Assembly: GCA_015066205.1 (NCBI GenBank)
Contig: SVOV01000013.1
Location: forward strand, 1 to 56,544
Source of the DNA: Oscillospiraceae bacterium
Lineage (GTDB): Bacteria > Bacillota > Clostridia > Oscillospirales > Acutalibacteraceae
Direction: 5' to 3'
Length of the DNA stretch: 56,544 nt
Positions 7,093-26,091 of this stretch are shown here, in pieces. The notes under the pieces were generated by a model, which saw only the letters and a program-made list of their open reading frames with translations, ran no database searches and was not told the origin of the DNA. Each line of letters begins with the position of its first letter. Positions within the stretch are counted from its first letter, which is position 1. The position numbers were made by a program, and so were the translations under genes.

Positions 7093-8094
7093 CTAAATAT
7101 TCATTTCAACTATATGCGCAATTCCGGGAATGCTTTCCCCCTGAAGCGATATAAGCGGTGACATAAGTGCTCCTGTCCCGATAAAGAGAACCTTTTTCAA
7201 TTCACGGTTATTCATTCTTTTCATAATATGAGAAGCCAATACTGCAGCAGAACAACCGCATCCGGAGCCGCCTGAATCAACCTTCTGACCTTCAAGATCA
7301 TAAATTATGAGTCCGCAGTCATTATGCACAGCACTAATATCATATCCTTTATTGTTAATAAGATAATCCTTCAAAAGAATACTTCCGACCTTACCGAGAT
7401 CTCCTGTTAAAATCATATCGTAATCTTTAGGCTCGGTTTTGGTACACTTCAAAAATTCACTTATGGATTCAGCGGCGGCAGGTGCCATAGCGGCACCCAT
7501 ATTTGACGAGTCCGTCACACCGAGATCAACCACCTTACCTATAAGGATCCTTGGAATGAAAACCTTTTGCTTTTTATTCCTTTCAACCACGAATGCTCCG
7601 GCACCGGTAACCGTTCGCTGTGATGTCGGTGATCTCTGGCTACCGTATTCAACAGGATACCTGAACTGCTTTTCAGCTGAACAAAAATGTGAGGAGGTGG
7701 CAGCGACAGCTGTATCAGCGTAACTACCGTCTACAGTAAGTGTTGCCAAAAGCATTGAATATGCCATTGTAGAACAAGCTCCGAATAATCCGCAAAATGG
7801 CACATTTTTATTTCTGAAGGAATATGAGCTCGGAGTACACTGATTCAACAGATCCCCTGCAAAAGCAATATCAATATCATCAAAACTTTTATTAGCACTT
7901 TTCAATGCAATTTCTACCGCATTTGATAAAAGCTCACATTCAGCTTTTTCCCACGATGACTGATTGATACCGTCATCAGAAAAACACATATCAAAATCTT
8001 GAGAAATCGGACCTTCACTCTCAGTTTTTCCTACGCAAGATCCAAATCCTGTAAGAGATGGTTTAGATTTCAGTTCTATCACACGATTATTCAA
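7093..8094 (-). CDS. spoVAD: Stage V sporulation protein AD
   Basis: The 333-residue product has the thiolase-like fold of SpoVAD, the dipicolinic acid-binding protein needed to load Ca-DPA into the forespore. Visible family segments are SKPSLTGFGSCVGKTESEGPI, CGLFGACSTMAYSML, SSHFCSAEKQFRYPVEYG and GGSGCGCSA. I place the start at TTG 8094, because GGAGG lies six bases upstream and the TTG overlaps the spoVAC stop (TTGA). Reading further upstream gives an unrelated hydrophobic extension. Products act at the forespore inner membrane. Confidence 0.93.
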   Translation of the reverse strand: MNNRVIELKSKPSLTGFGSCVGKTESEGPISQDFDMCFSDDGINQSSWEKAECELLSNAVEIALKSANKSFDDIDIAFAGDLLNQCTPSSYSFRNKNVPFCGLFGACSTMAYSMLLATLTVDGSYADTAVAATSSHFCSAEKQFRYPVEYGSQRSPTSQRTVTGAGAFVVERNKKQKVFIPRILIGKVVDLGVTDSSNMGAAMAPAAAESISEFLKCTKTEPKDYDMILTGDLGKVGSILLKDYLINNKGYDISAVHNDCGLIIYDLEGQKVDSGGSGCGCSAAVLASHIMKRMNNRELKKVLFIGTGALMSPLISLQGESIPGIAHIVEMNI

Positions 8095-8546
8095 GCATTG
8101 CCTCCGAGAAAAAAATAATAGATAAATCCGTATAAAGATGCAAGAGAACAACCATATACGATCACAGCTCCCGCAAGGGAAAACATCTTTTCAGCGGTTC
8201 CGAGAATATGCCCCTCAACAGCATATTCTATAGCAGGAGAACATACAGAATTTGCAAAACCGCTTATCGGAACCGAAAGACCGGCACCGAATATCTTAGC
8301 AATTCTATCATATATTCCTATACCTGTAAGTGCAGCTGTTATTACGATAAACATAATAGAAACAAGAGTTCTTGCAAGCTTTTCATCTCGTAACAATGCT
8401 GTATAAATATTAAAAAATATTTCTCCGAACAAACAAACACATCCGCCTCCGATAAAAGCTAACAGAGAATTCTTTAATATGGCTGTTTTCGGAGAAACGA
8501 GCTCAACTTTTTTAAGATACTCATTATCACTTGTTTTTTTCACCAT
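8091..8546 (-). CDS. spoVAC: Stage V sporulation protein AC
   Basis: This 151-residue membrane protein matches SpoVAC, a mechanosensitive-type channel component for Ca-DPA movement. It has hydrophobic segments around SLLAFIGGGCVCLFGEIFF, TLVSIMFIVITAALTGIG and AGAVIVYGCSLASLYGFIYYF, and the conserved ISGFANSVCSPAIEY region. The ATG at 8546 is chosen because AGAGG precedes it by six bases; an upstream in-frame start has no ribosome site. spoVAC and spoVAD overlap by four bases. Confidence 0.93.
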   Translation of the reverse strand: MVKKTSDNEYLKKVELVSPKTAILKNSLLAFIGGGCVCLFGEIFFNIYTALLRDEKLARTLVSIMFIVITAALTGIGIYDRIAKIFGAGLSVPISGFANSVCSPAIEYAVEGHILGTAEKMFSLAGAVIVYGCSLASLYGFIYYFFLGGNA

Positions 8547-8627
8547 TATCGACCTCTGATTTAAGTTTGTACAGATATTTAACAAATATTCAAATAACAA
8601 AAAATCTTACGATTTGTCAACCCCCTA

Positions 8628-9903: not shown

Positions 9904-10893
9904 TCAGAATTCAATTGTAAAGTTGTGCTCAGTAATATACTTACCTAAATTGAAATCTCTTGCAATGAATTCAACTCTGTCATCATAAACTTCCATAATG
10001 TATCCTGTACCGGATTCATTATACTCACCGTCAGCATTCTTAGGTCCGATGCCGGGAAGGTTTACGCCCCAGAAATTGCCGATCTTATGAATTGACCATT
10101 CCTTGCTGAAGCCCATATGAAGATGACCTGTGATAAGGATAGCATTGCTGTGATCATTCATAATTTCATAGATCGCATCACTCTGCTTACCTACTGTACC
10201 GGCATTATTATCAGGAGAATTCCAAGCCTGCCATACCTGATGAGTTTCTTTAAGAGGCTGATGAAGAATTACAAATACAGGCTTACCTGTAGCAGCTGCC
10301 TTATCAAGTTCTGCATCAAACCAAGCAAGACATTCATCTGAAAAATAAGATTCTTCAAAAACAGACTTATCTGTTCCGAGAACTATAAAAGTATAGCCGT
10401 TTACTTCATAAGTATAGGAAAGCTTTCCATCCTTATAAGCGAGCTCATCAAGATTAAGCTTGTTATCTGCAGCATAGCAAAATTCTGAGAAAGTATCATA
10501 AACCTGAGAATAAGCTCTGAGTCTTACATCGTGATTACCAACTGTAAATATATGATTATCGATCTTATCCTTACAAACGCTGAGATAATCAAGAACAAGC
10601 TGATATTCCGCACCCTTGCCGTTTTCAGCAATATCGCCTGCAAGAACGAGAGCATCAAAAGTTCCTTCTGCATTTGCAAGATCAAGAGCTGCATTCTTTG
10701 TAAACTGATGTCTGTCAGCCATATAGTCAGATACCTGAGGATCACCCCAAAGAACTGCAGTCATATTAGCGTCTTCATTAACTTTAATAACCGTATCTGT
10801 TGAAGGAGCATCAAGAACTCCGCCGAACAGAGAAGCGAAAGATATAAACAGCAGAAGCAGTTTATACATAAAACCAGTGAAAATTGAACTCAT
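9904..10893 (-). CDS. Exported calcineurin-like metallophosphoesterase
   Basis: The protein has 329 residues. A hydrophobic N-terminus (residues about 9-26, YKLLLLFISFASLFGG) suggests export or membrane anchoring. The metal ligands follow the family order: GDPQ (Asp51; Gln53 where many members have His), GD (Asp87), GNHD (Asn120-His121), His211 in ILHQP, and GHLH (His257, His259). Substrate could be a phospholipid head group, a nucleotide or a phosphodiester. It starts 31 bp after the secreted hydrolase gene stops and shares its promoter and terminator. Confidence 0.85.
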   Translation of the reverse strand: MSSIFTGFMYKLLLLFISFASLFGGVLDAPSTDTVIKVNEDANMTAVLWGDPQVSDYMADRHQFTKNAALDLANAEGTFDALVLAGDIAENGKGAEYQLVLDYLSVCKDKIDNHIFTVGNHDVRLRAYSQVYDTFSEFCYAADNKLNLDELAYKDGKLSYTYEVNGYTFIVLGTDKSVFEESYFSDECLAWFDAELDKAAATGKPVFVILHQPLKETHQVWQAWNSPDNNAGTVGKQSDAIYEIMNDHSNAILITGHLHMGFSKEWSIHKIGNFWGVNLPGIGPKNADGEYNESGTGYIMEVYDDRVEFIARDFNLGKYITEHNFTIEF

Positions 10894-10924
10894 TGTAATC
10901 GTGTCTCCTTTATACTAAAAATTT

Positions 10925-12754
10925 TCACCTGAATAAAATAATGTCCGAAAAGCCTTTTCCGCCGAAGAACTTGAGCATAAACTCACTCCAGAACTTGAAT
11001 ATCTTTGTGATAAGTTCAATGAAAAAGTCGGGCTTTTCTTCAACTCTTTCGGTTCCGTTTACAATTTTATATGTAATAGATTCAAATCTGTCCTTGACAG
11101 CGTTGAATTCTTCAGTGGGCATATAAGTGCTGTTAACTGCCTTTTCGAGCTCTGCTAAAGCTTCATTGAATTCCTTAGCATCTGCTTCATTGAGATTTGC
11201 TGTATTATAATTCTTCCAGCTGTTATAATTGTTAATAGCACCGTGGGAATCACGGGCAAAATTAAACTGCGGATATGCGGGATCAGAATATACATTTTCA
11301 AATGATTCGTCAGTGAGGATTCTTATTGCAAGACGCATAATAACATCATTTCTTGCTGTCTTTTCGTGATCCTGTCCCTTAAAATAGAAGGTCGTTTCAC
11401 AAAGTATTCCCGTTGAAGCATCAACAAGTCTTGCTTCGTCAATATGATTATGGGAGGGATCAGTGCAATAAGTATTAGCCTGAACATAATCGTCGGGAAG
11501 AGAAACATCAACGCCTACGGTCGTTGCACCAAAGGATTCTGAATCAGTGTGAATAATTCCGTCAGAATTTACCTTGTTCCAGGAGTCGCATATCTGATAC
11601 ATTGTGTAATTATAATCCACAATATCAAAAAATTCAACACCTTTTTCTTTTAATTCAAGAATATATTTTCTTGAATTTACCTGAGCATTATAATACCAGT
11701 CTGTCTGCTCACGGACATAAATATCTTCAGGATCAGAAAGATACATTTCCCTGCATTCGGGATAGTCCTTTGAGGGTACAAGAGCCCAGAGCATCGTTGA
11801 ATATTCAAGATAATCCTCAACGAGGACATGAACTGCGGTATCAATTATATTATTTACATCTGCATTGGGAAGAATTCTTAAAATCAGATTAATAAGGTAA
11901 GCAAGATAAGCCTGATCCTCATCAAGAAGAGAGGGGAACATATAGCCGTAAAGAGCATCATCGTCATCAAGAAGACCGTAGTGATAAATATCACCGAGAA
12001 CAGCAGCACCGTCAGCGGCGGGTACTACATAACATACCCTGTTGATATCATCCGAAAAATCAAGGCCTTTGTCAATATAAAGCTGCATAAGAGCATTTTC
12101 AACAGAGCCGCCCTGGCTTATAGGAACAAGATTAACCTTGTCATGTCCTGTTTCAGCCTTTGCTATCTGAATAAGCTCATAAAGCTCATTGACATTATCA
12201 AGCATATTGCCTGTTGAATGATAAGAGAAGAAATAAAGATGGTCAAGACCTGCAATATCAACATACTTCTGCAGGGGAATCTGATCAAGAGCATAAGCTC
12301 TCTGCTCTGCCGTAAGGTTTGCAAGGCTTGTTGTATATCTGTCAGCCTGAATATTCTTGATTACCCTTCCGTGTTCATCAAGAGCAATGTTGCTGAGAAG
12401 TGCATCACCGAGAACCTCGGCTACAGCATTTGCACATCTTTTATCAATATCTGTCTGAGTAAGAAGAAGTCCGCCGAGAGGAATAAGAGCCTCTTCAAGT
12501 GCCTTTTTTACTATTTCATCAGTAGATTTCATAAAGAAAGGCGCAGAATAAGTCTCTCCTGCTTCATTGAGCATTTCATTTCCGTTTTCATCGAGATATC
12601 TTACTTTTGACTGGAAAATACCCGGTATAACAATAGAAGGACAATGCTCACAATTACAATCACCTGTCACAGCAAAAGCTGTAACCGAAACAGCAGAAAA
12701 AGCTATAAGAGCAACTAAAATAATTGATAACAATCTGTTTAATCTAAATTTCAT
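10925..12754 (-). CDS. Secreted lipase-like alpha/beta hydrolase
   Basis: The protein has 609 residues from the ATG at 12754, which has GGAGG nine bases upstream; the longer reading lacks a ribosome site. Residues about 6-28 form a signal peptide (LLSIILVALIAFSAVSVTAFA). The mature part begins with IVIPGIFQSKV, resembling the oxyanion-hole strand of lipases, and VNLVPISQGGS looks like a nucleophile elbow, although the first Gly of GxSxG is Pro. A Cys pair (CNCEHC) follows the signal. The C-terminus (FFIELITKIFKFWSEFMLKFFGG) is amphipathic and may contact membrane. Family assignment is by pattern only; it is the first gene of an operon with the phosphoesterase. Confidence 0.65.
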   Translation of the reverse strand: MKFRLNRLLSIILVALIAFSAVSVTAFAVTGDCNCEHCPSIVIPGIFQSKVRYLDENGNEMLNEAGETYSAPFFMKSTDEIVKKALEEALIPLGGLLLTQTDIDKRCANAVAEVLGDALLSNIALDEHGRVIKNIQADRYTTSLANLTAEQRAYALDQIPLQKYVDIAGLDHLYFFSYHSTGNMLDNVNELYELIQIAKAETGHDKVNLVPISQGGSVENALMQLYIDKGLDFSDDINRVCYVVPAADGAAVLGDIYHYGLLDDDDALYGYMFPSLLDEDQAYLAYLINLILRILPNADVNNIIDTAVHVLVEDYLEYSTMLWALVPSKDYPECREMYLSDPEDIYVREQTDWYYNAQVNSRKYILELKEKGVEFFDIVDYNYTMYQICDSWNKVNSDGIIHTDSESFGATTVGVDVSLPDDYVQANTYCTDPSHNHIDEARLVDASTGILCETTFYFKGQDHEKTARNDVIMRLAIRILTDESFENVYSDPAYPQFNFARDSHGAINNYNSWKNYNTANLNEADAKEFNEALAELEKAVNSTYMPTEEFNAVKDRFESITYKIVNGTERVEEKPDFFIELITKIFKFWSEFMLKFFGGKGFSDIILFR

Positions 12755-12781
12755 TTGACTCTTCCTCCTGAATTTTTTATT

Positions 12782-12810
12782 ATTATAACACTTAATTTTT
12801 TCATTTTCAA
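12782..12810 (-). promoter_or_regulatory. Promoter of the secreted hydrolase operon
   Basis: TTGAAA (12805-12810), 17 bp, TATAAT (12782-12787) on the minus strand. It lies back-to-back with the sialidase promoter at 12853. Confidence 0.85.
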
Positions 12811-12852
12811 TTATTTTTACAAAAATAATGCTGAACAAAATCATTATTTCTG

Positions 12853-12881
12853 TTGAATTTTGGCAGTTTTTCTGATAAATT
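12853..12881 (+). promoter_or_regulatory. Promoter of the first sialidase-fold gene
   Basis: TTGAAT (12853-12858), 17 bp, TAAATT (12876-12881). The predicted transcript starts near 12888, which rules out the upstream in-frame ATG at 12853. Confidence 0.7.
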
Positions 12882-12912
12882 ATTATTTAGAAAAGACAGG
12901 AGGTCTGCAAGT

Positions 12913-13887
12913 ATGATAAAACGAGCTGAAAAAGAATTTATTTTCCGTAAGAATGAAAAAGCACCGAGCTGTCACGCTTCAACCGTTCTGCCGTTAGATA
13001 ACGGTCATGTGCTCGCCGCTTGGTTCGGCGGTGCAAGAGAAGGCGACAAAGGTGTTGAGATATGGATATCCGAAAGAGATGAAAACAACAACTGGAGTGC
13101 CCCGCGCTCTATCAGCGAGGGCGACAATGTTGCACACTGGAATCCTGTGTTATACAAACAGGAAAACGGAAATATAATCCTTTATTACAAACACGGAGAA
13201 AAAATACCCGATTGGATCACTAAATACATTGTCAGCTGTGACAACGGAAAAACCTGGAGCAAACCCGAAATTCTTGTCCCCGGTGACAAGAGCGGCGGAA
13301 GAGGACCTGTAAAAAACAAATGTCTGAAACTAAAAAACGGAACGCTTCTCGCGCCTGCATCAACAGAACAGAACAAAAAATGGATTCCTTTTATTGATAT
13401 ATCCTATGATGACGGTATTACATGGACTGCCTCACCCTATATGGCTCGTCCAAAGTATAAAGGTGCTTATGTAGGTCTTATTCAGCCAACCTTATGGGAG
13501 TCAGACAACGGCGAAGTTCATTGTCTGCTGCGCTCAAATAAAGGAGCTGTATACAGGTCTGATTCGACTGATAACGGTCTTACCTGGAAAAAACCGTATC
13601 GTACAAGAATTCCAAACAACAATTCAGGAATTGACTGTGTAAAAGACAGTTCGGGCAGAATATGGCTCATTTATAATCCCGTTGATGTTAACTGGGGAAT
13701 AAGACATCCGCTTTCACTGGCATATTCTAAGGATGACGGCAAGCATTTTACCGAGGTTCTGATTCCCGAACCCGGTAACGGCGAATTCTCATACCCTGCC
13801 ATAACAGAAAAAGATAATACATTATATATAACTTACACATACAAAAGAAAACAGATAGTTTTCTGGAAAATTGAACTTGAGGACTGA
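12913..13887 (+). CDS. Sialidase-fold (BNR repeat, BNR_2 type) protein
   Basis: The 324-residue beta-propeller protein is read from ATG 12913, with AGGAGG nine bases upstream. Four Asp-box motifs are visible: SCDNGKTW, SYDDGITW, STDNGLTW and SKDDGKHF. The N-terminal block HASTVLPLDNG, followed by AAWFGGAREGDKGVEIW, is characteristic of the BNR_2 sialidase-like group. There is no signal peptide, so the enzyme is predicted to be cytosolic. Sialic acid is the family substrate, but other acidic or deoxy sugars are possible in this subgroup. It is monocistronic, between its own promoter and the terminator at 13895. Confidence 0.82.
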   Translation: MIKRAEKEFIFRKNEKAPSCHASTVLPLDNGHVLAAWFGGAREGDKGVEIWISERDENNNWSAPRSISEGDNVAHWNPVLYKQENGNIILYYKHGEKIPDWITKYIVSCDNGKTWSKPEILVPGDKSGGRGPVKNKCLKLKNGTLLAPASTEQNKKWIPFIDISYDDGITWTASPYMARPKYKGAYVGLIQPTLWESDNGEVHCLLRSNKGAVYRSDSTDNGLTWKKPYRTRIPNNNSGIDCVKDSSGRIWLIYNPVDVNWGIRHPLSLAYSKDDGKHFTEVLIPEPGNGEFSYPAITEKDNTLYITYTYKRKQIVFWKIELED

Positions 13888-13894
13888 TAAAAGG

Positions 13895-13925
13895 GACGGC
13901 AATCAAAGATGATTGCCGTCTTAAG
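13895..13925. terminator. Terminator between the two convergent sialidase genes
   Basis: A perfect 11-bp stem GACGGCAATCA (13895-13905) / TGATTGCCGTC (13910-13920) with loop AAGA. TTAAGTTTTT follows on the plus strand and CCTTTT on the minus strand, so it can serve both genes. Confidence 0.88.
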
Positions 13926-13928
13926 TTT

Positions 13929-15518
13929 TTACAGAGTAAATTTAGTAAAAGTAATATATCCCGAGGGGTATGCTTCATATAGAAGCCCAATACTATTGTT
14001 ATCAAGAACCGTTAAACAGGAATATGCATAAAAATCAGAATACTTTTCAAAAGATGAATATTTAATCTTATCTGTTATATCATATTCCTTTATCCAGCTG
14101 ACTTTTTCACCATCAATACGCCCGAGAAAAACCTTACCGTCAGATCTTGTAAAATCTTTTCCGCCGTGTCCTGTCGGTGTTGAAAGAAGAATAAATCTTC
14201 CGTCGTTTTCCAATCCGTCAGGAAGCCTGAAATCTACCGGAAGAGAAATTACCGATTTCTGACACTGAGGAACCTTCGGTTCAACGGCTTCAAGCATACG
14301 GAAGGTTTCACCTCCGTCATCGGACACACTCAAAGGTATTTTTCCGCCGCCCTTAGGTCTTCCGAAACAGAAAACCTTTCCGTCAGGCATTTCAACAAGC
14401 TGACATTCATCAATATTTTCACAGAATTCAGCCTTATTTCTGCGCCAGCTGATTCCGTTATCATCACTTATAAGAACAAGAGCCTTACCGAGTATATAGC
14501 AAGGCGCAAGAATACGGCCTTTGAACCTGTTATTGTTCAGTGTAAGTCCCACACCGGGTCCGACACCGAGAAATATTCCGTCAGACTCTTTTTTGTAATA
14601 TGGTGTAATGTCAACAGGCTGCGAAAAGTTCTTGCCTCCGTCTGTGCTTTCAAATTTATATATGTAAGAAATCAACGGGGCTCTTAAAGGTGCTGCCGAG
14701 GTTTCGACACATACAAAATTACCTTCATTATCGAATACCTTTTTCTTCTGAACAAATTCAATACTATTTTTATTAAATCTTTGTTTTGACTTGCTGACAA
14801 AAATATTACCGACATATATATCTTCACCAAGATTACATTCCGGAATCAAAGGAGGACAAACATCAAGATACATAGGCTTATCACCGCTGCAATAATACAT
14901 ATCTCCCCAAGTGGCAAAACCGTTTTCCTGAGAATGTTTTCGCGGTATATAAAACTTTGTCTTTTCCCCGGAAGGCGAATACACAAAGCCGTCAGAATGT
15001 AAAGTATATTCCTTGCCACGCAATGCAAAATGACCGTCAAGCTTTGATTTGCCGGAAAACAGCTTGAGGCAGTATTCTTGATCTGTCAAGGTATATCCGT
15101 TACCTTTTTCGAGAAGACCCGGAGCGTGCAGGCCCTTTGATTCAGGATAATAATCGACAAGCATAATTACTTTACCGTCGTCTGCTTCCATAAGCAAAGG
15201 ATCTATGGCAAACGACGAAGAAAAGTCTTGCCACTTATACGGATATTTTCTGACCGGCGGTGAAAATACTGTTTTTATATCGGAAAAGCAGTCCCCGTTA
15301 TCATTGCTTGTTCTCACGGCTATTTCAATAAATCCCCAATCGGCACCGCAGGAGGCCTTGTCAGCAGCTGCAATGACCGTGCCCTTATTTTGACCGTTTT
15401 TTAGCATCAGAAGTGATGGTATTCTTCCGTCAGCCATATTACCGAATTGCTTATCACTGTCATAAAACTCTTTGAATGCTTCACAGTTTTTTCCGACAAA
15501 CAGAGGATAATCTTTCAT
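13929..15518 (-). CDS. Exo-alpha-sialidase (GH33-like)
   Basis: The protein has 529 residues. The first arginine of the triad sits in GRIP (Arg32, in place of F/YRIP), followed by the AAD and ADWG acidic sites (Asp53, Asp60). ECQLVEMPDG (Glu371) with Arg387, and TRSDG (Arg458), fit the other triad positions. YSCLTVLDNNSIGLLYE (Tyr499, Glu515) matches the Tyr/Glu end of clostridial sialidases. Asp boxes SNDNGDCF, STDGGKNF, SDDNGISW and SDDGGETF are present. Residues about 150-270 hold an insertion as in NanI-type enzymes. No signal peptide is seen, which is unusual for a GH33 sialidase. Equivalences to NanI are by eye. Confidence 0.85.
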   Translation of the reverse strand: MKDYPLFVGKNCEAFKEFYDSDKQFGNMADGRIPSLLMLKNGQNKGTVIAAADKASCGADWGFIEIAVRTSNDNGDCFSDIKTVFSPPVRKYPYKWQDFSSSFAIDPLLMEADDGKVIMLVDYYPESKGLHAPGLLEKGNGYTLTDQEYCLKLFSGKSKLDGHFALRGKEYTLHSDGFVYSPSGEKTKFYIPRKHSQENGFATWGDMYYCSGDKPMYLDVCPPLIPECNLGEDIYVGNIFVSKSKQRFNKNSIEFVQKKKVFDNEGNFVCVETSAAPLRAPLISYIYKFESTDGGKNFSQPVDITPYYKKESDGIFLGVGPGVGLTLNNNRFKGRILAPCYILGKALVLISDDNGISWRRNKAEFCENIDECQLVEMPDGKVFCFGRPKGGGKIPLSVSDDGGETFRMLEAVEPKVPQCQKSVISLPVDFRLPDGLENDGRFILLSTPTGHGGKDFTRSDGKVFLGRIDGEKVSWIKEYDITDKIKYSSFEKYSDFYAYSCLTVLDNNSIGLLYEAYPSGYITFTKFTL

Positions 15519-15545
15519 TTCCTTACACCTTCTGACTTTTTTGTT

Positions 15546-15574
15546 ATAATATCACAAAATTTACTTTTTCGCAA
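15546..15574 (-). promoter_or_regulatory. Promoter of the GH33-like sialidase gene
   Basis: TTGCGA (15569-15574), 17 bp, TATTAT (15546-15551) on the minus strand. It is arranged divergently with the gtrA-like promoter. Confidence 0.7.
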
Positions 15575-15585
15575 CAACCTTTCTA

Positions 15586-15614
15586 TTGCAAATTCATTAT
15601 AATTATGTTAAAAT
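15586..15614 (+). promoter_or_regulatory. Promoter of the gtrA-like/ceramidase-fold operon
   Basis: TTGCAA (15586-15591), 17 bp, TAAAAT (15609-15614). The predicted start near 15621 lies downstream of the first in-frame ATG (15605), supporting the GTG start at 15644. Confidence 0.65.
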
Positions 15615-15643
15615 TATTAAAATTAAAGAAAGAAGTTGATTTT

Positions 15644-16126
15644 GTGAGTGAAAAGGCTGCAAATAAAAGTATTTTTCAATTTGTCAAATTTGCATTATTC
15701 TCTTGCTCTGCCGGTATAATACAAATCGGTAGCTTCACATTGATGAATGAAGTTCTTCTGAATACTGAATTTATGCAGAATTTGATAGCATCAAATGAAA
15801 CATTTGCAAAAATAATGACAAATGAATATGGACCATTCTATCTTATTGCCTTGATTCTTTCTGTTTTATGGAATTTCACTTTTAACAGAAAATTCACCTT
15901 TAAGTCAGCCGCAAATATTCCCGTTGCGATGCTGAAAGTTTTTGGTTTCTATCTGATTTTCACTCCTGTATCAACTGTTCTCGGCAACTATTTCACATCG
16001 CATTATGCTGATATTCCTGCTGTTGAATACATAGTTTTAGGTGTTACAATGGCTTGCAATATGATCACAGAGTATCTTTTCTGTAAGTTTGTAGTGTACA
16101 AAAATCAGGAAAATACTGCTGAATGA
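15644..16126 (+). CDS. GtrA-like membrane protein
   Basis: The protein has 160 residues from GTG 15644 (AGAAG eight bases upstream, within the predicted transcript). It has four hydrophobic segments and the GtrA hallmark WNFTFNRKFTFKS between TM2 and TM3, with a second helix pair ending CNMITEYLFCKFVVY. GtrA-family proteins are thought to move polyprenyl-linked sugars or modify surface glycans. It starts the operon with the three ceramidase-fold genes (21-bp gap), an unusual partner set. Confidence 0.8.
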   Translation: MSEKAANKSIFQFVKFALFSCSAGIIQIGSFTLMNEVLLNTEFMQNLIASNETFAKIMTNEYGPFYLIALILSVLWNFTFNRKFTFKSAANIPVAMLKVFGFYLIFTPVSTVLGNYFTSHYADIPAVEYIVLGVTMACNMITEYLFCKFVVYKNQENTAE

Positions 16127-16147
16127 ATATAAGGGAGGGGAAAATAA

Positions 16148-17839
16148 ATGTCTGACTTTTTTTCATCCGAAAGGTTTGTCCGTTTTACGGAAAAAACGAT
16201 ATACAAACTTCTCGGCGGTTTTGCAGACAGCCTTAATGACGGTCCGTCGTTTATTAATGCTTCCGAATATGATAACAGGTTCTTCTTTGAAGGAAGCAAA
16301 AAATTCAGAAAATCTCCGGCGAAAAATGCTAAATGGAAGCTTGGTTATGCCATAGTAGATCTTACACCATACGATTTTTCTGATAAAGATTATTATCTCG
16401 GAGGCTATCTGACACCTGATAACGGATTTAATAACCGTATTCAGAAAATAATTGATAAAATGCAGTGCCGCATTATAGCACTTGATGATAATTCAGGAAA
16501 CGGCACATCATTTTTCGGAACAATTGACTGCATCGGAACCGGAAATGCTGATATCAAGGTAATAAGAAGACGCTTTCTTGATCTGATGAAATATAAGCAT
16601 CCGGATGCTAAGATCTCAACTGTAAATATTTTCTCAACTCACGCCCATTCCTGTGTTGACACACAAGGCTTATGGACAGACACTTTATCAAAGGTTCTTC
16701 ACAACAAAAAGAAGAACAAAAAAGGTAAAGGAACATATTTATCCGGCGCGGACAGCGAATTTATGTATGCACTATCTTCTAAAATTGCTGAAGGCCTAGT
16801 AAAAGCATATGAAAATATGACACCGGGTATTATGACTCTCGCCTCAAAAGATATCGGAAATGATTATTTTAATAACAAAAACAGAAAATCAGCAACAAGT
16901 CTTGTTACAAAGATTACAAGACTTATGTTTACTCCCGATGACAGAGATGCTGTTCCTACCATAATTGCAACAATGGGTGCCCATCCCGATGTAGCAGGTC
17001 TCCCCACATCTGACGGTCACGGCACCGGACGGGATCTTTGCGGAGAATACATTTACTATATGGGAGAAACGATCAATAAAGCAGGATATAATTTCATGTT
17101 CTTTAACGGTGCCATCTGCGCTATATATATGTCCTGCGGTGCATCTGATGACGGTGTTGATCTTGCTCAAAGATATGAAAAATCCATCCGTTTCGGCCGC
17201 GAGCTCGGTAGGATCACCCTTTCTCTTACTAAAACTGAAGAAGAAATCAGAAATGATCCTATTCTTTACAATGAAGACGAAATAGAAAATGACAAAAGAA
17301 ACGCCGAAAAGAACAGTGCTCATTATTCTCTCTGGTGTGAGAATTGGAAACCGGTAAAAGAAAAAACAGTAAAACCAATTCTCAACATAAGAATCAAAGA
17401 GGTTAAATTATCTGTAACCAATCCCCTAATTCAGATCGTCGGTAAGCTTAATCTGGTATCTTATAAGGTGTTAAGAGAAAAAGACGGCACATATTCAATA
17501 ATTACCGAAATCGGCTTTATTGAATTCGGAAAGGAATTATCTGTTGTGATGGTTCCCGGTGAATTCTGTGCAGATCTTCTTACAGGCGGCGACTCACTTA
17601 AGGCTGAAGGCTCCTTCAATAAATTTGCCTTCCCCTATCCCCCGCTTACAGAAATTTTTGAAAGAGATCTCATTGCATTCGGACTTGCAAACGATGCTAT
17701 AGGCTACATAGTCCCTGACAACGACTATGTTCTCGGTGAATTCGGTAATCACTATCATGAGCTTATCGGTCTTGGCATCAACGGCGGCTCGACCATAATT
17801 AAAGCTTTTATAGAAATGAAAAATGAATTGGAGGTTTAA
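16148..17839 (+). CDS. Neutral-ceramidase-fold protein A
   Basis: The protein has 563 residues. It resembles neutral/alkaline non-lysosomal ceramidases: STHAHS (His165, His167), GAHP (His279), VPGE (Glu472) and ANDAIGY (Tyr520) sit where the zinc ligands H, H, E and Y are found. The usual GD[V]SPN nucleophile motif is replaced by NGAICAIYMSC (about 320-330). The N-terminus (residues 1-28) is amphipathic and no signal peptide is visible. A Lys-rich insert (about 185-196) breaks the core. It is 3 bp upstream of paralogue B. Amide hydrolysis of a lipid is the family activity; the substrate here is unknown. Confidence 0.72.
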   Translation: MSDFFSSERFVRFTEKTIYKLLGGFADSLNDGPSFINASEYDNRFFFEGSKKFRKSPAKNAKWKLGYAIVDLTPYDFSDKDYYLGGYLTPDNGFNNRIQKIIDKMQCRIIALDDNSGNGTSFFGTIDCIGTGNADIKVIRRRFLDLMKYKHPDAKISTVNIFSTHAHSCVDTQGLWTDTLSKVLHNKKKNKKGKGTYLSGADSEFMYALSSKIAEGLVKAYENMTPGIMTLASKDIGNDYFNNKNRKSATSLVTKITRLMFTPDDRDAVPTIIATMGAHPDVAGLPTSDGHGTGRDLCGEYIYYMGETINKAGYNFMFFNGAICAIYMSCGASDDGVDLAQRYEKSIRFGRELGRITLSLTKTEEEIRNDPILYNEDEIENDKRNAEKNSAHYSLWCENWKPVKEKTVKPILNIRIKEVKLSVTNPLIQIVGKLNLVSYKVLREKDGTYSIITEIGFIEFGKELSVVMVPGEFCADLLTGGDSLKAEGSFNKFAFPYPPLTEIFERDLIAFGLANDAIGYIVPDNDYVLGEFGNHYHELIGLGINGGSTIIKAFIEMKNELEV

Positions 17840-17842
17840 TAT

Positions 17843-19297
17843 ATGGATTTTTCAAAGCTTGCATCATCAGCCCTGAAAAGCATAACTAAAATCGGGAAAT
17901 ATACATATACCGAACCTCTTCCTGACGGCGAGTTTTTCTATCAAAAAGAAGCACAGGCAGAGTATTTTACTGCAGGCTTCGGAAAAGCAGTAATGCTGCC
18001 AGATGATATCAAAACAAAAAAATACTATATTGCAGGCTACGGTGAAAACAATCCCGCAAAAGGTGTAATCGATCCTCAGTATGCTCACGCCTTATGGCTT
18101 GATGACAATGCAGGAAACGGAGGACATCTTTTTGTTTCACTTGACATAGTCGGACTCCTGAATAAGGATGTAAATTCCCTCAAAAACGCACTCGGAGAGT
18201 TTTCCGAAAAAACAAACTGCCGTTCAATAACTATTATGAGTACTCATAATCACGCAGGTATTGACACAATGGGAATTTGGGGGAAATTGCCCCACACGGG
18301 AAAAAGCAGAAAGTTTATGACAATTCTTTTCAACGCAGTAATAACTGCTGCCGGTGCCGCCTATCGTGACAGAAGAGAAGGTAAGCTTTATCACGGCACT
18401 ATAGAGGTTCCCGATATGCAGGAGGACATAAGAACTCCTGTCGTTTATTCCAAGACACTTACAAGACTTCGCTTCGTTCCTAATGACGGTTCAAGAGAGA
18501 TATATTTTCTAAATTTTGCTTCTCATTCCGAATCTCTACAGGGATGCAATTCCTTGGTAAGTGCTGATTTTCCCTGTTATCTCCGCGAAAAGATAAGAAA
18601 TGAAACTGGAGCTGAAACCATATACGGAGTTGGTGCTATCGGCGGAATGATAAGTATGGAAATTGATGATGAGGATAAACTCAGAAAAGAAAACAGACTG
18701 CTCGAATCAACAAGAAACATCGGTTACAAGCTTGCTGATTATGCATTGAGCATTGATAATGAAAAAGTACTTAATCCGAGAATCAGTTTTATAAAGCAGG
18801 AATTCTATGTTCCCGTTGAGAATCCCGTTCTCACCATTGCCTGTCAGATAGGTCTTCTCAATGCTGATGCCTATACTGTACCTTATTCAGATGAAAGAGT
18901 TCTTAAATCTGAACTGAACTATTACGAAATAGATGATCTCGGAATTCTTATGATACCTTGCGAATTGTTCCCTGAGCTTGCATACGGCGGTTATCTTTCA
19001 GAAGAAGAGTCTGCAGAAGGACTTTCACCTGACATTAACCCCACTCCCCTTGTTGAGATTGCTGATAATAAAGAGCTTCTTATTTTCGGCCTTGCAAATG
19101 ATGAGCTCGGATATGTTTTACCGCCAAATGACTTTATGCTGAATACTGATACACCTTATCTTGACAGAGCTATTGACAGATTCGGCAGAAGACATTACGA
19201 GGAAACAAATTCAATGGGTCCCGAAACTGCAGCAATTATTGCTGACAATTTCACAAAGATCATAAACACGGTTAATACTGCTAAGTCAGTTAAATAA
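17843..19297 (+). CDS. Neutral-ceramidase-fold protein B
   Basis: This 484-residue paralogue is the shortest of the three. The metal-site pattern is STHNH (His135, His137), ASHS (His228), IPCE (Glu374) and ANDELGY (Tyr424). The nucleophile-motif region reads GVGAIGGMISM, again without GD[V]SPN. No signal peptide; the first 20 residues are amphipathic. GGAGG lies ten bases upstream of the ATG. The tight packing with A suggests the two act together in the cytosol or at the inner membrane face. Confidence 0.72.
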   Translation: MDFSKLASSALKSITKIGKYTYTEPLPDGEFFYQKEAQAEYFTAGFGKAVMLPDDIKTKKYYIAGYGENNPAKGVIDPQYAHALWLDDNAGNGGHLFVSLDIVGLLNKDVNSLKNALGEFSEKTNCRSITIMSTHNHAGIDTMGIWGKLPHTGKSRKFMTILFNAVITAAGAAYRDRREGKLYHGTIEVPDMQEDIRTPVVYSKTLTRLRFVPNDGSREIYFLNFASHSESLQGCNSLVSADFPCYLREKIRNETGAETIYGVGAIGGMISMEIDDEDKLRKENRLLESTRNIGYKLADYALSIDNEKVLNPRISFIKQEFYVPVENPVLTIACQIGLLNADAYTVPYSDERVLKSELNYYEIDDLGILMIPCELFPELAYGGYLSEEESAEGLSPDINPTPLVEIADNKELLIFGLANDELGYVLPPNDFMLNTDTPYLDRAIDRFGRRHYEETNSMGPETAAIIADNFTKIINTVNTAKSVK

Positions 19298-19319
19298 CAA
19301 AAATACGGAGGAAAATTAA

Positions 19320-20945
19320 ATGAAACATGCAAAAAAGTTTATTGCTCTTATGCTTACAGTTCTGTTAGTTGTTTTAACTATGGCTGTTCCCGCATCTGCT
19401 GCATCAAAGGTTGATCCCAGCGAAAGCGTTGGTGCAAAAATTGAAGCAACATTCTATCAGTTGCTTGATAAGGTTGTTTCTGCTCTTGTTAAGGTTCTTA
19501 ATCTTTTAATTCCCGGTCTTAACTGGGGAGATAAATGGTCTGATTTTGATGACTATGTAGCTCCCGACACCTTCTACGGCGGTGAAAATGAGTTTGATAC
19601 CGAAGTTAAAGAGGGTGCACAGTGGAGTGCAGGTTACGCTTATGCATCCCTTCTTGAGGGACTTGAGATCTTTGACGGAACATATTATATGGCAGGCACT
19701 CTTGAACCCATGGAAGGCAGAGTTCCCACAAAGGTTATTGACGATCAGGGTGTAAGTGTATATGCTCTTTCTGACGGCACAAGCGGAATCGTAATTCAGG
19801 CAGTTGTAGACGGTTACGGTATAGCAAGAGGCGATGTTCTTGCTATCAGAGAAAAGCTTGCTGATTTTGCCGCTGAAAACAATATCATCAGCATCAATGT
19901 TTCTGCTCTTCATCAGCATTCCTGCATTGATATTCTCGGTATGGGTGCTCCCCTCGTTCCCGCTATTCTTAAGAACCCCGCATTAAGCCTTATCGGCGGC
20001 AATATTGAAGATTATGTCGGCGGTAAGTCTGTTAGATTTATGAACAATATGTATAATGTTGTTGCTGATGCTGTTATGACTGCTGTTAATTCTATGGAAG
20101 CAGGTACACTTTATTACGGCAGTGTTGATGCAAGTGAACTCATTTATGATAAGCGTGAGCCTATCACATTTGACGGCGAGCTTCACAGATTCCGTTTTGA
20201 TCCCGATGACGAAAATGCAAATGAGATATGGCTTTGCGAAGCAGGTATTCACTGCGTAGGCTTCGGCGCAGGTGCTGATGTTATTTCTGCTGACTTCCCC
20301 TATTATTTCAAGGAATATGTAAAGGAAACAACAGGTGCTGATGTAGTTTATGTTCAGGGTGCAGAGCTTGCTCTTACAACTGAATATGATAATATTCAGA
20401 CAGAAGAAACATCTGATGAAGCAAGAGTCAAGGCTTACGGTACTGAACTTGCAAAGAAAGCTCTCACCATCGAAAATGATGTTGAACTCGATCCCGTACT
20501 TAATGTTAAATTCACAGAGGTTGCAATTGATACAGACAATCAGATTCTTACCCTTGTTGTAAGAGAAGGACTTATCAACAGCGTAATCACAAAGGACGGC
20601 CTCGGCTTTAATATCATCACTGAAGTCGGTTATATGGAACTCGGCAACAAAGTAGGCGTAGTATTCCTTCCCGGTGAAATTGCCCCCGAAATCATCTGGG
20701 GCGGAGTTGTAGGTGCAGACAAGAGTTGGACAAATGAAACTTGGGATTATGCACCTATGTCCGAAACAGCAAAAGTTGAAAAGCTTCTTTGCTTCGGTCT
20801 TAATAATGACCAGATAGGTTATGTTCTTGCCGATAACGATATTCATTCAATGTTTACCGAAAATGAAGAGATCAACGCATCTTCAACTACATCAGGTTCT
20901 GCATTAACCAAGGCATTTGAACAGCTTATTTCTACTGTAAAATAA
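19320..20945 (+). CDS. Exported neutral-ceramidase-fold protein C
   Basis: The protein has 541 residues. Unlike A and B it begins with a clear signal peptide (residues 1-28, FIALMLTVLLVVLTMAVPASA, with a probable cleavage after ASA). A hydrophobic amphipathic helix (about 43-66, TFYQLLDKVVSALVKVLNLL) follows. Zinc-site pattern: LHQH (His198, His200), GIH (His311), PGE (Glu453) and NNDQIGY (Tyr501). The nucleophile region reads VQGAELALTTE. It is the last gene before the terminator at 20961. It could be the extracellular member of a set whose cytosolic partners are A and B. Confidence 0.75.
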   Translation: MKHAKKFIALMLTVLLVVLTMAVPASAASKVDPSESVGAKIEATFYQLLDKVVSALVKVLNLLIPGLNWGDKWSDFDDYVAPDTFYGGENEFDTEVKEGAQWSAGYAYASLLEGLEIFDGTYYMAGTLEPMEGRVPTKVIDDQGVSVYALSDGTSGIVIQAVVDGYGIARGDVLAIREKLADFAAENNIISINVSALHQHSCIDILGMGAPLVPAILKNPALSLIGGNIEDYVGGKSVRFMNNMYNVVADAVMTAVNSMEAGTLYYGSVDASELIYDKREPITFDGELHRFRFDPDDENANEIWLCEAGIHCVGFGAGADVISADFPYYFKEYVKETTGADVVYVQGAELALTTEYDNIQTEETSDEARVKAYGTELAKKALTIENDVELDPVLNVKFTEVAIDTDNQILTLVVREGLINSVITKDGLGFNIITEVGYMELGNKVGVVFLPGEIAPEIIWGGVVGADKSWTNETWDYAPMSETAKVEKLLCFGLNNDQIGYVLADNDIHSMFTENEEINASSTTSGSALTKAFEQLISTVK

Positions 20946-24373: not shown

Positions 24374-26062
24374 TTATTTATTGATAATTCTTGAAAAGAA
24401 AAATTCTTTTCTTTCAGGTGTATTGATAACCACAACAGGCTTAATCTGATTAAGAACTCTGCCCTGAGCTACAAGAGAAGCCTTATATGCATCATAAGAA
24501 CCGTTTTCAAGCTTATAAACAACGGGTTCACGAAGCATACCCCATCTTCTGTACTTGTCATACTTTTCATTACAGTCCCTGAAAAGTCTGTCCATAGCAG
24601 CTTCAAAATTCTCCTTATCAGTCAAAGGCAGCTCACTCGAAGTATCGCAAAGCATTACATAACGGGGAACTTCGCCGTCTGTATCAGAATAGAAGCTATA
24701 GCCCTTAAAATCTATGCCGAATTCCCTCTCAAGGTTTTCTGCAACAAAATCAAGCATCTGCGTAGTAGTTTTTTCATTTGCCGCATTCAGTCCCATATTT
24801 GATCTGTAAAGGAATTCGATCTTAGGAGTTTTATTATGCATACCGGTTACATGGACTATATCAAGGATTCTGTATCTGTAAAGTCCCGAGAAATTAGTTA
24901 CAATAATCTCATAATCCTTTCCGACCTCAATTTCATTCATAAGAAGAGGACGGGTTCCCTCAGGTGCATCCACAGGTAAGAATTCATAAATGATGCTTCT
25001 CGGAAGAAGAACATAATCATTTACATTAAGAGAAACCGGCATTGCCATAAAACCTTCAGATGCAGCATAACCCATATTATGCATAGGAAGATCACCGATA
25101 TATCTTTGAAGCTTTTCGACATAAACAGAAAGAGTTGAGCTTATCATCCCGTAGCCCCAGCAAAGCTTGGGCCAGATTCTCTTTGCAATAGGCACATCTG
25201 TTTCAAAGCCCTTTTGGAATTCAGCACGAAGTTCTGCAGCTCTTTTCGGATCAGGCTTTAATTTCTTTTCATACTTTTCACGAAGAGATGCGGGGCATTT
25301 TACTGAAGGATCGATAGTACCCTTTTCAATATCGTTACATATCATCTCCCAATTTCCCTCAAGATACTCAAACATCGTTGAAAGAAGAGTAATAACAAGA
25401 GAACCGAGATATGTGACATTCTTATTTACAAGAGAGAATCTCAGCTGAAAATACTGAATATTTGTATTCTCCTCATCCTCAGGATAAAGAATGTCAATGG
25501 GAGTTGTTGTAAAGAAAGGAAGAAGAGGCTTAAGATAAGTAAAAGGAATCTGACCTGCGCCGTTACATCTCATTCCGTTTTTAAGAGGATGCCCGTTGAG
25601 AGATATAAGAAGGGGGCCCATCTGAGCAGGAAGACTTTTGTATATCCCCTTTTCCTTAAAGTAATTTGCGGCACAGGCAGGTGTAGCCGCAAAACCCATA
25701 GATTGCATATTAAAAAGATCTCTTGCAGTTTTAGGCTGGAGCTTGGGCTTTCCGACACTGCCTGATGAAGAACAGTATCTTATAATCTTACTGCCTGTGA
25801 TTATATTTTCTTCATTGTTTTCAACCATACGGTCAATCAACGGAAGATAATCTTCAAATGTTGAAAGAGGAACCTTATCCTGAAAATCTCTGAGGGTACG
25901 GATACTTGCAAAATCATATTTCTTTCCGAGTTCGCAATCCTTGTTTCGAGCAATAATCTTTTCAAGAGTTTTCTGCTGCGTTTCCATCGGAACTGAAGTA
26001 AAATGATTAAAACCTTTAAACACAATATTGCCAAGGAAAACGCCAATATTAGAAATTGCCAT
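24374..26062 (-). CDS. GH3-family (auxin-responsive GH3-like) acyl-adenylating enzyme
   Basis: The protein has 562 residues from ATG 26062, chosen because AGGAG lies just upstream; a longer TTG reading overlaps the ribosome site. GH3 features: LSTFEDYLPLIDRM, the P-loop-like YCSSSGSVGKPK, a late YRYRILDIVHVTG segment, and the C-terminal domain with KYDKYRRWG. Plant GH3 enzymes adenylate a carboxylic acid and join it to an amino acid; bacterial members are mostly uncharacterised. Paired with an MFS gene, which could import the acid or export the conjugate. Confidence 0.88.
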   Translation of the reverse strand: MAISNIGVFLGNIVFKGFNHFTSVPMETQQKTLEKIIARNKDCELGKKYDFASIRTLRDFQDKVPLSTFEDYLPLIDRMVENNEENIITGSKIIRYCSSSGSVGKPKLQPKTARDLFNMQSMGFAATPACAANYFKEKGIYKSLPAQMGPLLISLNGHPLKNGMRCNGAGQIPFTYLKPLLPFFTTTPIDILYPEDEENTNIQYFQLRFSLVNKNVTYLGSLVITLLSTMFEYLEGNWEMICNDIEKGTIDPSVKCPASLREKYEKKLKPDPKRAAELRAEFQKGFETDVPIAKRIWPKLCWGYGMISSTLSVYVEKLQRYIGDLPMHNMGYAASEGFMAMPVSLNVNDYVLLPRSIIYEFLPVDAPEGTRPLLMNEIEVGKDYEIIVTNFSGLYRYRILDIVHVTGMHNKTPKIEFLYRSNMGLNAANEKTTTQMLDFVAENLEREFGIDFKGYSFYSDTDGEVPRYVMLCDTSSELPLTDKENFEAAMDRLFRDCNEKYDKYRRWGMLREPVVYKLENGSYDAYKASLVAQGRVLNQIKPVVVINTPERKEFFFSRIINK

Positions 26063-26091
26063 ATATACTCTCCTGTTCAATAATATAACAA

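Follow-up and report, generated by a model that had tools for sequence, protein, structure and literature searches.

The contig SVOV01000013.1 of an Oscillospiraceae bacterium (GenBank assembly GCA_015066205.1) was analyzed over positions 1 to 56,544 of the forward strand, and this whole stretch of 56,544 nucleotides is called the window. At 9904..20945 it carries eight genes, three of which encode paralogues (A, B, and C) related to neutral ceramidase. An earlier note on this DNA had listed here an exported phosphoesterase, an exported lipase-like hydrolase, two sialidase-fold proteins, a GtrA-like protein, and three ceramidase-fold paralogues. The gene set was found as described: all eight genes are intact open reading frames at the positions it gave, and several have Pfam matches. 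On the minus strand, 31 bp apart, lie Mpe (9904..10893), a predicted exported calcineurin-like phosphoesterase (Pfam Metallophos, 1.7e-9) whose synteny is kept in five genomes including its own, and Lip (10925..12754), a candidate exported lipase-like alpha/beta-hydrolase. Lip itself gave no significant Pfam match; it carries the motif PISQGG, a four-sequence Lip profile matched the lipase 6nkc in the PDB at E 0.0025, and one of the four aligned Lip members matched Abhydrolase_1 at 2.2e-4. The AlphaFold model of Lip was poor (mean pLDDT 48.6), and its start was set at 12754, the open reading frame itself opening at 12844. They are followed by BNR (12913..13887, plus strand), a sialidase-fold protein with a strong BNR_2 match (2.8e-71), whose open reading frame opens at 12853 and whose start was placed where the ATG of the relative in locus L051 maps, at about 12913. 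The GH33-type sialidase gene (13929..15518) lies on the minus strand. The remaining four genes all run rightward with gaps of 21, 3, and 22 bp: a GtrA-like membrane protein (15605..16126; GtrA_DPMS_TM, PF04138, 7.7e-8), A (16148..17839), B (17843..19297), and C (19320..20945). By this spacing, they look like one presumed operon with GtrA as its first gene. A hydropathy scan found strongly hydrophobic N termini in Mpe, Lip, and C, that of C being signal-peptide-like (Kyte-Doolittle 2.87), and none in BNR, GH33, A, or B, in agreement with the signal peptides that the earlier note had assigned.

The three ceramidase-fold proteins were then compared with one another and with neutral ceramidase. 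Only B matched Pfam Ceramidase_alk (PF04734; 3.7e-8, 32.9 bits against a gathering cut-off of 32.1), whereas A (563 residues) and C (541 residues) gave no Pfam match at 0.1. Nevertheless, A and C align with B at 26% and 29% identity, respectively, with the metal-site positions common to all three, and all three also align with five more copies from the same genome; A, B, and C are, by alignment, one family, as the earlier note had it. For a wider alignment, 113 complete family members from the window and loci L077-L156 were reduced at 80% identity to 74 representatives, of which 65 were aligned. H135/H137, H228, E374, and Y424 were invariant in 65/65 sequences. We take the zinc ligands of neutral ceramidase to be His, His, Glu, and Tyr, and infer that the family would likewise bind zinc. 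Furthermore, the predicted structure of B, compared with 2zws, contains the catalytic-domain fold of neutral ceramidase. Homology, predicted fold, and conserved metal-site residues thus directly support the kinship, and A, B, and C appear to be related to neutral ceramidase and to share its catalytic fold.

Two features of neutral ceramidase were, however, not found. The nucleophile serine of the Pseudomonas aeruginosa enzyme is presumably S274, and its motif is not conserved across the 65 aligned sequences: the S274 column holds I in 45, Y in 5, T in 4, S in 4, V in 3, D in 3, and G in 1, and the column after it S in 27, T in 10, M in 9, R in 7, and others in the rest. In B, the serine one position further on could take the nucleophile role; otherwise, as no nucleophile serine is conserved, a metal-bound water would perhaps be the attacking group. 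In addition, B lacks the C-terminal domain, matching 2zws over residues 1-491 and then stopping where that domain begins. Because these two features are missing, identity as neutral ceramidase is not established, although ceramide may be a substrate as far as sequence goes. Compared with neutral ceramidase (P. aeruginosa 2zws/2zxc, human 4wgk; PF04734), the family is only 14-18% identical and differs further in reaching up to 11 copies per genome and in having amino-sugar genes as neighbors in relatives. The window's own genome also encodes a twelfth, very divergent PF04734 protein (L009:9344-10636), which has GDVGP at the nucleophile motif and adjoins an aminotransferase of DegT type, named by eye.

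As for the sialidase-fold proteins, GH33 matched PDB sialidases, best 5tsp at E 5.1e-31, and Pfam BNR_2 at 2.9e-12. PDB entries 2vk5 and 5tsp we take to be the NanI-type GH33 sialidase of Clostridium perfringens. Six positions are kept in the alignment to 5tsp (RIP, GAD, ECQ, the Arg of MRN/GRP, the Arg of SRSNG/TRSDG, and YAYSCLT); the catalytic set is presumably made up of the Arg of RIP, the loop Asp, the Glu of ECQ, the other two Arg, and the Tyr of YSCLT. The earlier assignment of a sialidase is thus borne out for GH33, which differs from the NanI type in having no hydrophobic N terminus and in its genomic setting: NanE was found in 0/26 genomes of the genus at E 1e-10, in a search that did not extend to an epimerase of another family, so that there is no sign of a classical route for sialic acid. 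BNR, which we take for a COG4692 protein, appears to be of a different kind. R227, R284, and Y314 are invariant in 26 aligned sequences including its own, and its N-terminal Arg region did not align to solved sialidases; it is a candidate sialidase only.

To place these genes, their distribution was determined. At E 1e-6, the ceramidase-fold family was present in 33/59 genomes searched: 26/26 of the genus, with 2-11 copies each, 3/10 from other genera of the same taxonomic family, and 4/23 from elsewhere in the order (two of them weak matches). A class-wide sample, searched at E 1e-40 with up to three candidates scored per genome, added 2/390 other genomes, both of one genus. The family therefore marks the genus. 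By comparison, close GH33 was found in 6/26 genus genomes, plus two distant matches, and BNR in 18/26, one being a fragment. The full eight-gene set occurs in 5/26, the window's own genome included: the order Mpe-Lip-BNR-GH33-GtrA-A-B-C is also present in G006, G014, G017, and G019 at 70-88% identity, and such recurrence, directly supported like the gene spacing, is more than chance. In G017 and G019, a single additional gene of 556 and 578 residues, respectively (L049:4383-6053 and L052:4200-5936), separates BNR from GH33. Within the genus, at least 13/17 BNR genes lie less than 6 kb from a ceramidase-fold gene, a count over the 17 best matches without six distant paralogues; a further 147-residue BNR fragment in G008 is near no family gene among the matches listed, which gives at least 13/18. 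For GH33, at least 5/6 lie within 6 kb, the two distant matches (36% identity) being left out. These adjacency counts are lower bounds, as 141 of 171 tallied family matches were used.

These data bear on the pathway that the earlier note had proposed, in which the sialidase and the ceramidases open host sialylated glycosphingolipids stepwise with the help of lipase and phosphoesterase. The kept catalytic positions of GH33, the ceramidase fold, and exported Lip and Mpe are consistent with it, and many relatives are, by title, ruminant gut genomes; goat, sheep, deer, buffalo, and horse are among the hosts that the titles of relatives name. The nucleophile motif, however, is not conserved in the family, B lacks the C-terminal domain, and a hydrophobic N terminus is absent from GH33, A, and B. 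With the family in 26/26 genomes and close GH33 in 6/26, the sialidase looks like an add-on, which argues against a joint sialidase-ceramidase pathway. Moreover, some relatives come from samples whose codes we take to mean digesters and termite guts. Glycosphingolipid breakdown is thus an improbable function of the locus. Overall, the gene set, the fold, the sialidase, and co-occurrence of the genes in relatives (for BNR with the ceramidase fold, and for the full set in five species) are supported, whereas the glycosphingolipid pathway is not.

The neighborhoods of the family in relatives pointed elsewhere. The 80 named loci are the best 80 of at least 562 confirmed stretches and share ancestry, so they are not independent; neighbors were counted by tblastn, because the open reading frame caller sometimes let long antisense frames mask genes, such as GH84 in L090. 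Among these best 80 loci, an O-GlcNAcase-type acetyltransferase was near the family in 24, a membrane protein family (memX) in 21, BNR in 16, a BadF/NagK-like kinase in 16, GH84 in 13, KdsB in 12, a SIS protein in 10, MurQ in 5, and NamZ in 4. With cA to cG denoting family clades, different paralogue pairs occur in distinct arrangements: BadF-SIS-GH84-cB-cC-memX2, cB-cC-memX2-GNAT2-BadF-SIS, cB-cA-BadF-SIS-GH84, GNAT2-cD-cE-BadF-SIS-GH84, and BadF-MurQ-GNAT2-GH84-cG-cF, four of the last with NamZ added. In a quick tree of the 74 representatives and nine copies from the window's own genome, loci of this amino-sugar type fell in the cA, cB, cC, cD/F, cE, and cG clades, and relatives of A, B, and C were among them. 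Three memX members scanned (L007:3173-4615, L082:7820-9166, and L112:15827-17293) had no Pfam match; memX may be a transporter. Similarly, GH84 of Oceanicola granulosus adjoins an acetyltransferase, OgpAT, a pairing whose function is called unknown in the part of PMC3814719 drawn on here; the relatives share GH84 beside an O-GlcNAcase-type acetyltransferase and differ from that description in adding ceramidase-fold pairs, a kinase, and SIS or MurQ.

Such neighborhoods fit recovery of amino sugars out of the cell wall or sugar-lipids better than digestion of host gangliosides. From their recurrence, the best-fitting substrate class would be amino-sugar conjugates cut at amide or N-acyl bonds, and the reading we favor, if tentatively, is a conserved salvage locus of a genus of gut Clostridia in which A, B, and C are metal hydrolases of the ceramidase fold acting on such bonds and not specifically on ceramide. 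Muropeptides, N-acylated glycans, and amino-sugar lipids are examples of what the three would cleave, at the amide (or N-acyl) bond. C would work outside the membrane with exported Mpe and Lip, and A, B, and the sialidases on imported fragments, GH33 opening sialylated ones in some species.

A narrower alternative is that the family serves peptidoglycan only, the pairs being amidases, esterases, or lactamases on muropeptides within a salvage route for N-acetylmuramic acid (MurNAc). In L132, L137, L138, and L140, MurQ, NamZ, GH84, and the NagK-like kinase do adjoin cG-cF; L140:1935-11650 and L138:2421-10560 read as MurNAc salvage clusters, with the kinase, MurQ, the acetyltransferase, the ceramidase-fold pair, NamZ, and GH84 in the place expected for NagZ. 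A comparable cluster, murQ-murR-murP-amiE-nagZ-ybbC, is that of Bacillus subtilis, as far as the part of PMC5061867 used here describes it. The likeness (MurQ, NamZ, and a hexosaminidase together) is found in relatives only; they differ from the B. subtilis cluster in having GH84 for NagZ and an added ceramidase-fold pair and acetyltransferase, and the MurQ-NamZ-hexosaminidase set was not seen in the window's own locus. Furthermore, a PF00144 hydrolase of the beta-lactamase fold already stands beside NamZ in L140 and L162. We take AmiE to have the same fold, in which case there is no obvious need for another MurNAc amidase. Within the genus, NamZ is near a family gene in 0/7 cases among the matches listed, and a purely peptidoglycan role would leave the GH33 and BNR of the window unexplained. 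We regard it as the least likely of the alternatives.

In another recurring cluster, conserved with some 72-98% identity, cD-cE stand together with KdsB, GNAT2, an extra enzyme, one or two BNR genes, and one or two memX genes. In the window's own genome it lies on contig C19 (L007:3173-9342), with a membrane protein, two BNR genes, KdsB over the TIGR00466 cut-off, an acetyltransferase, and an enzyme weakly similar to nickel-pincer family TIGR00300 (E 0.0014). The genus genomes with KdsB (3/26) are the three where this cluster was observed, and KdsA (Kdo-8-phosphate synthase) exceeds the cut-off in 0/26, with weak matches below it in 5/26. This raises the alternative that the genes break down lipid A and lipopolysaccharide of Gram-negative bacteria: Lip would remove O-acyl chains, Mpe phosphate, the ceramidase-fold proteins the glucosamine N-acyl chains, and the sialidase-fold proteins Kdo. 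GH84 uses the 2-acetamido group of its substrate; GNAT2 re-acetylating the free amine would therefore enable GH84 to cut the disaccharide. Such a scheme covers lipase, phosphoesterase, amidase, acetyltransferase, GH84, and kinase at once, KdsB in the absence of KdsA over the cut-off is consistent with it, and a Lip relative follows GH84 in L126. It is, however, purely an assembly of parts with no lipid A-specific gene; the window's locus has no KdsB, an enzyme that normally serves synthesis, weak KdsA matches do occur, and the MurQ/NamZ variants fit peptidoglycan better. Lipid A as the substrate thus seems rather unlikely. In a bold form of the favored amino-sugar salvage, a genus-specific expansion would have taken the family away from ceramide and toward N-acylated amino sugars. 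Together with acetyltransferase and GH84, it would exchange acyl groups: acyl chains would be removed from amino-sugar lipids (lipid A, for example), and the sugar would be acetylated again so that it could be cleaved. Gut Clostridia could in this way digest endotoxin or envelope lipids; this too we consider speculative and improbable.

Several observations weigh against amino-sugar salvage itself. None of eight markers (GH84, BadF, SIS, MurQ, NamZ, NagB, BNR, and GH33) was found in 49 of the best 80 loci, and kinase, GH84, and MurQ were not recognized in the window's own locus. Genus GH84 lies less than 6 kb from a family gene in at least 3/21 cases. The NamZ count and the hydrolase beside NamZ given above tell in the same direction, as does the shared ancestry of the loci. 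Many B-type copies, moreover, are singletons between apparent housekeeping genes: in seven loci (L091, L092, L093, L095, L098, L099, and L112), one always follows genes that look like pth and a tRNA methyltransferase and precedes a small lipoprotein-like gene, all named by eye. It is thus conceivable, though still unlikely, that the family has a housekeeping role in turnover of the cell's own membrane lipids or envelope, perhaps in spores, with the glycan genes as incidental neighbors. Its presence in 26/26 genus genomes agrees with this, and so do SpoVAD (PF07451, 3e-133) and SpoVAC/SpoVAEB (PF03862, 2.4e-32) at 7093-8600 of the window, which suggest a spore former. The conserved pairing with BNR, the pairing with amino-sugar genes in several clades, and the high copy number argue against it.

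Elsewhere in the window, 24374-26080 encodes a homologue of plant-auxin-type GH3 acyl-amido synthetases (PF03321, 1.5e-68), which is also near ceramidase-fold genes in 3 of the best 80 loci. A surface polysaccharide cluster at 26934-51234, of which part of the genes was scanned, includes LytR-CpsA-Psr, glycosyltransferases, an ABC-2 transporter, and a UDP-sugar dehydrogenase.

Going by name, one would call A, B, and C ceramidases and infer that bacteria of the herbivore gut digest host sphingolipids. Sequence, fold, and neighborhood instead suggest a variant in which no nucleophile serine is conserved, of which a genome may carry up to eleven copies and which in relatives is linked to salvage of amino sugars and cell wall. 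If amino-sugar salvage is indeed the role, the family would represent a new type of amidohydrolase for peptidoglycan or amino-sugar lipids, and the occurrence in bacteria of GH84 beside an O-GlcNAcase-type acetyltransferase, for which the part of the 2013 report considered here (PMC3814719) gave no function, would gain a context.
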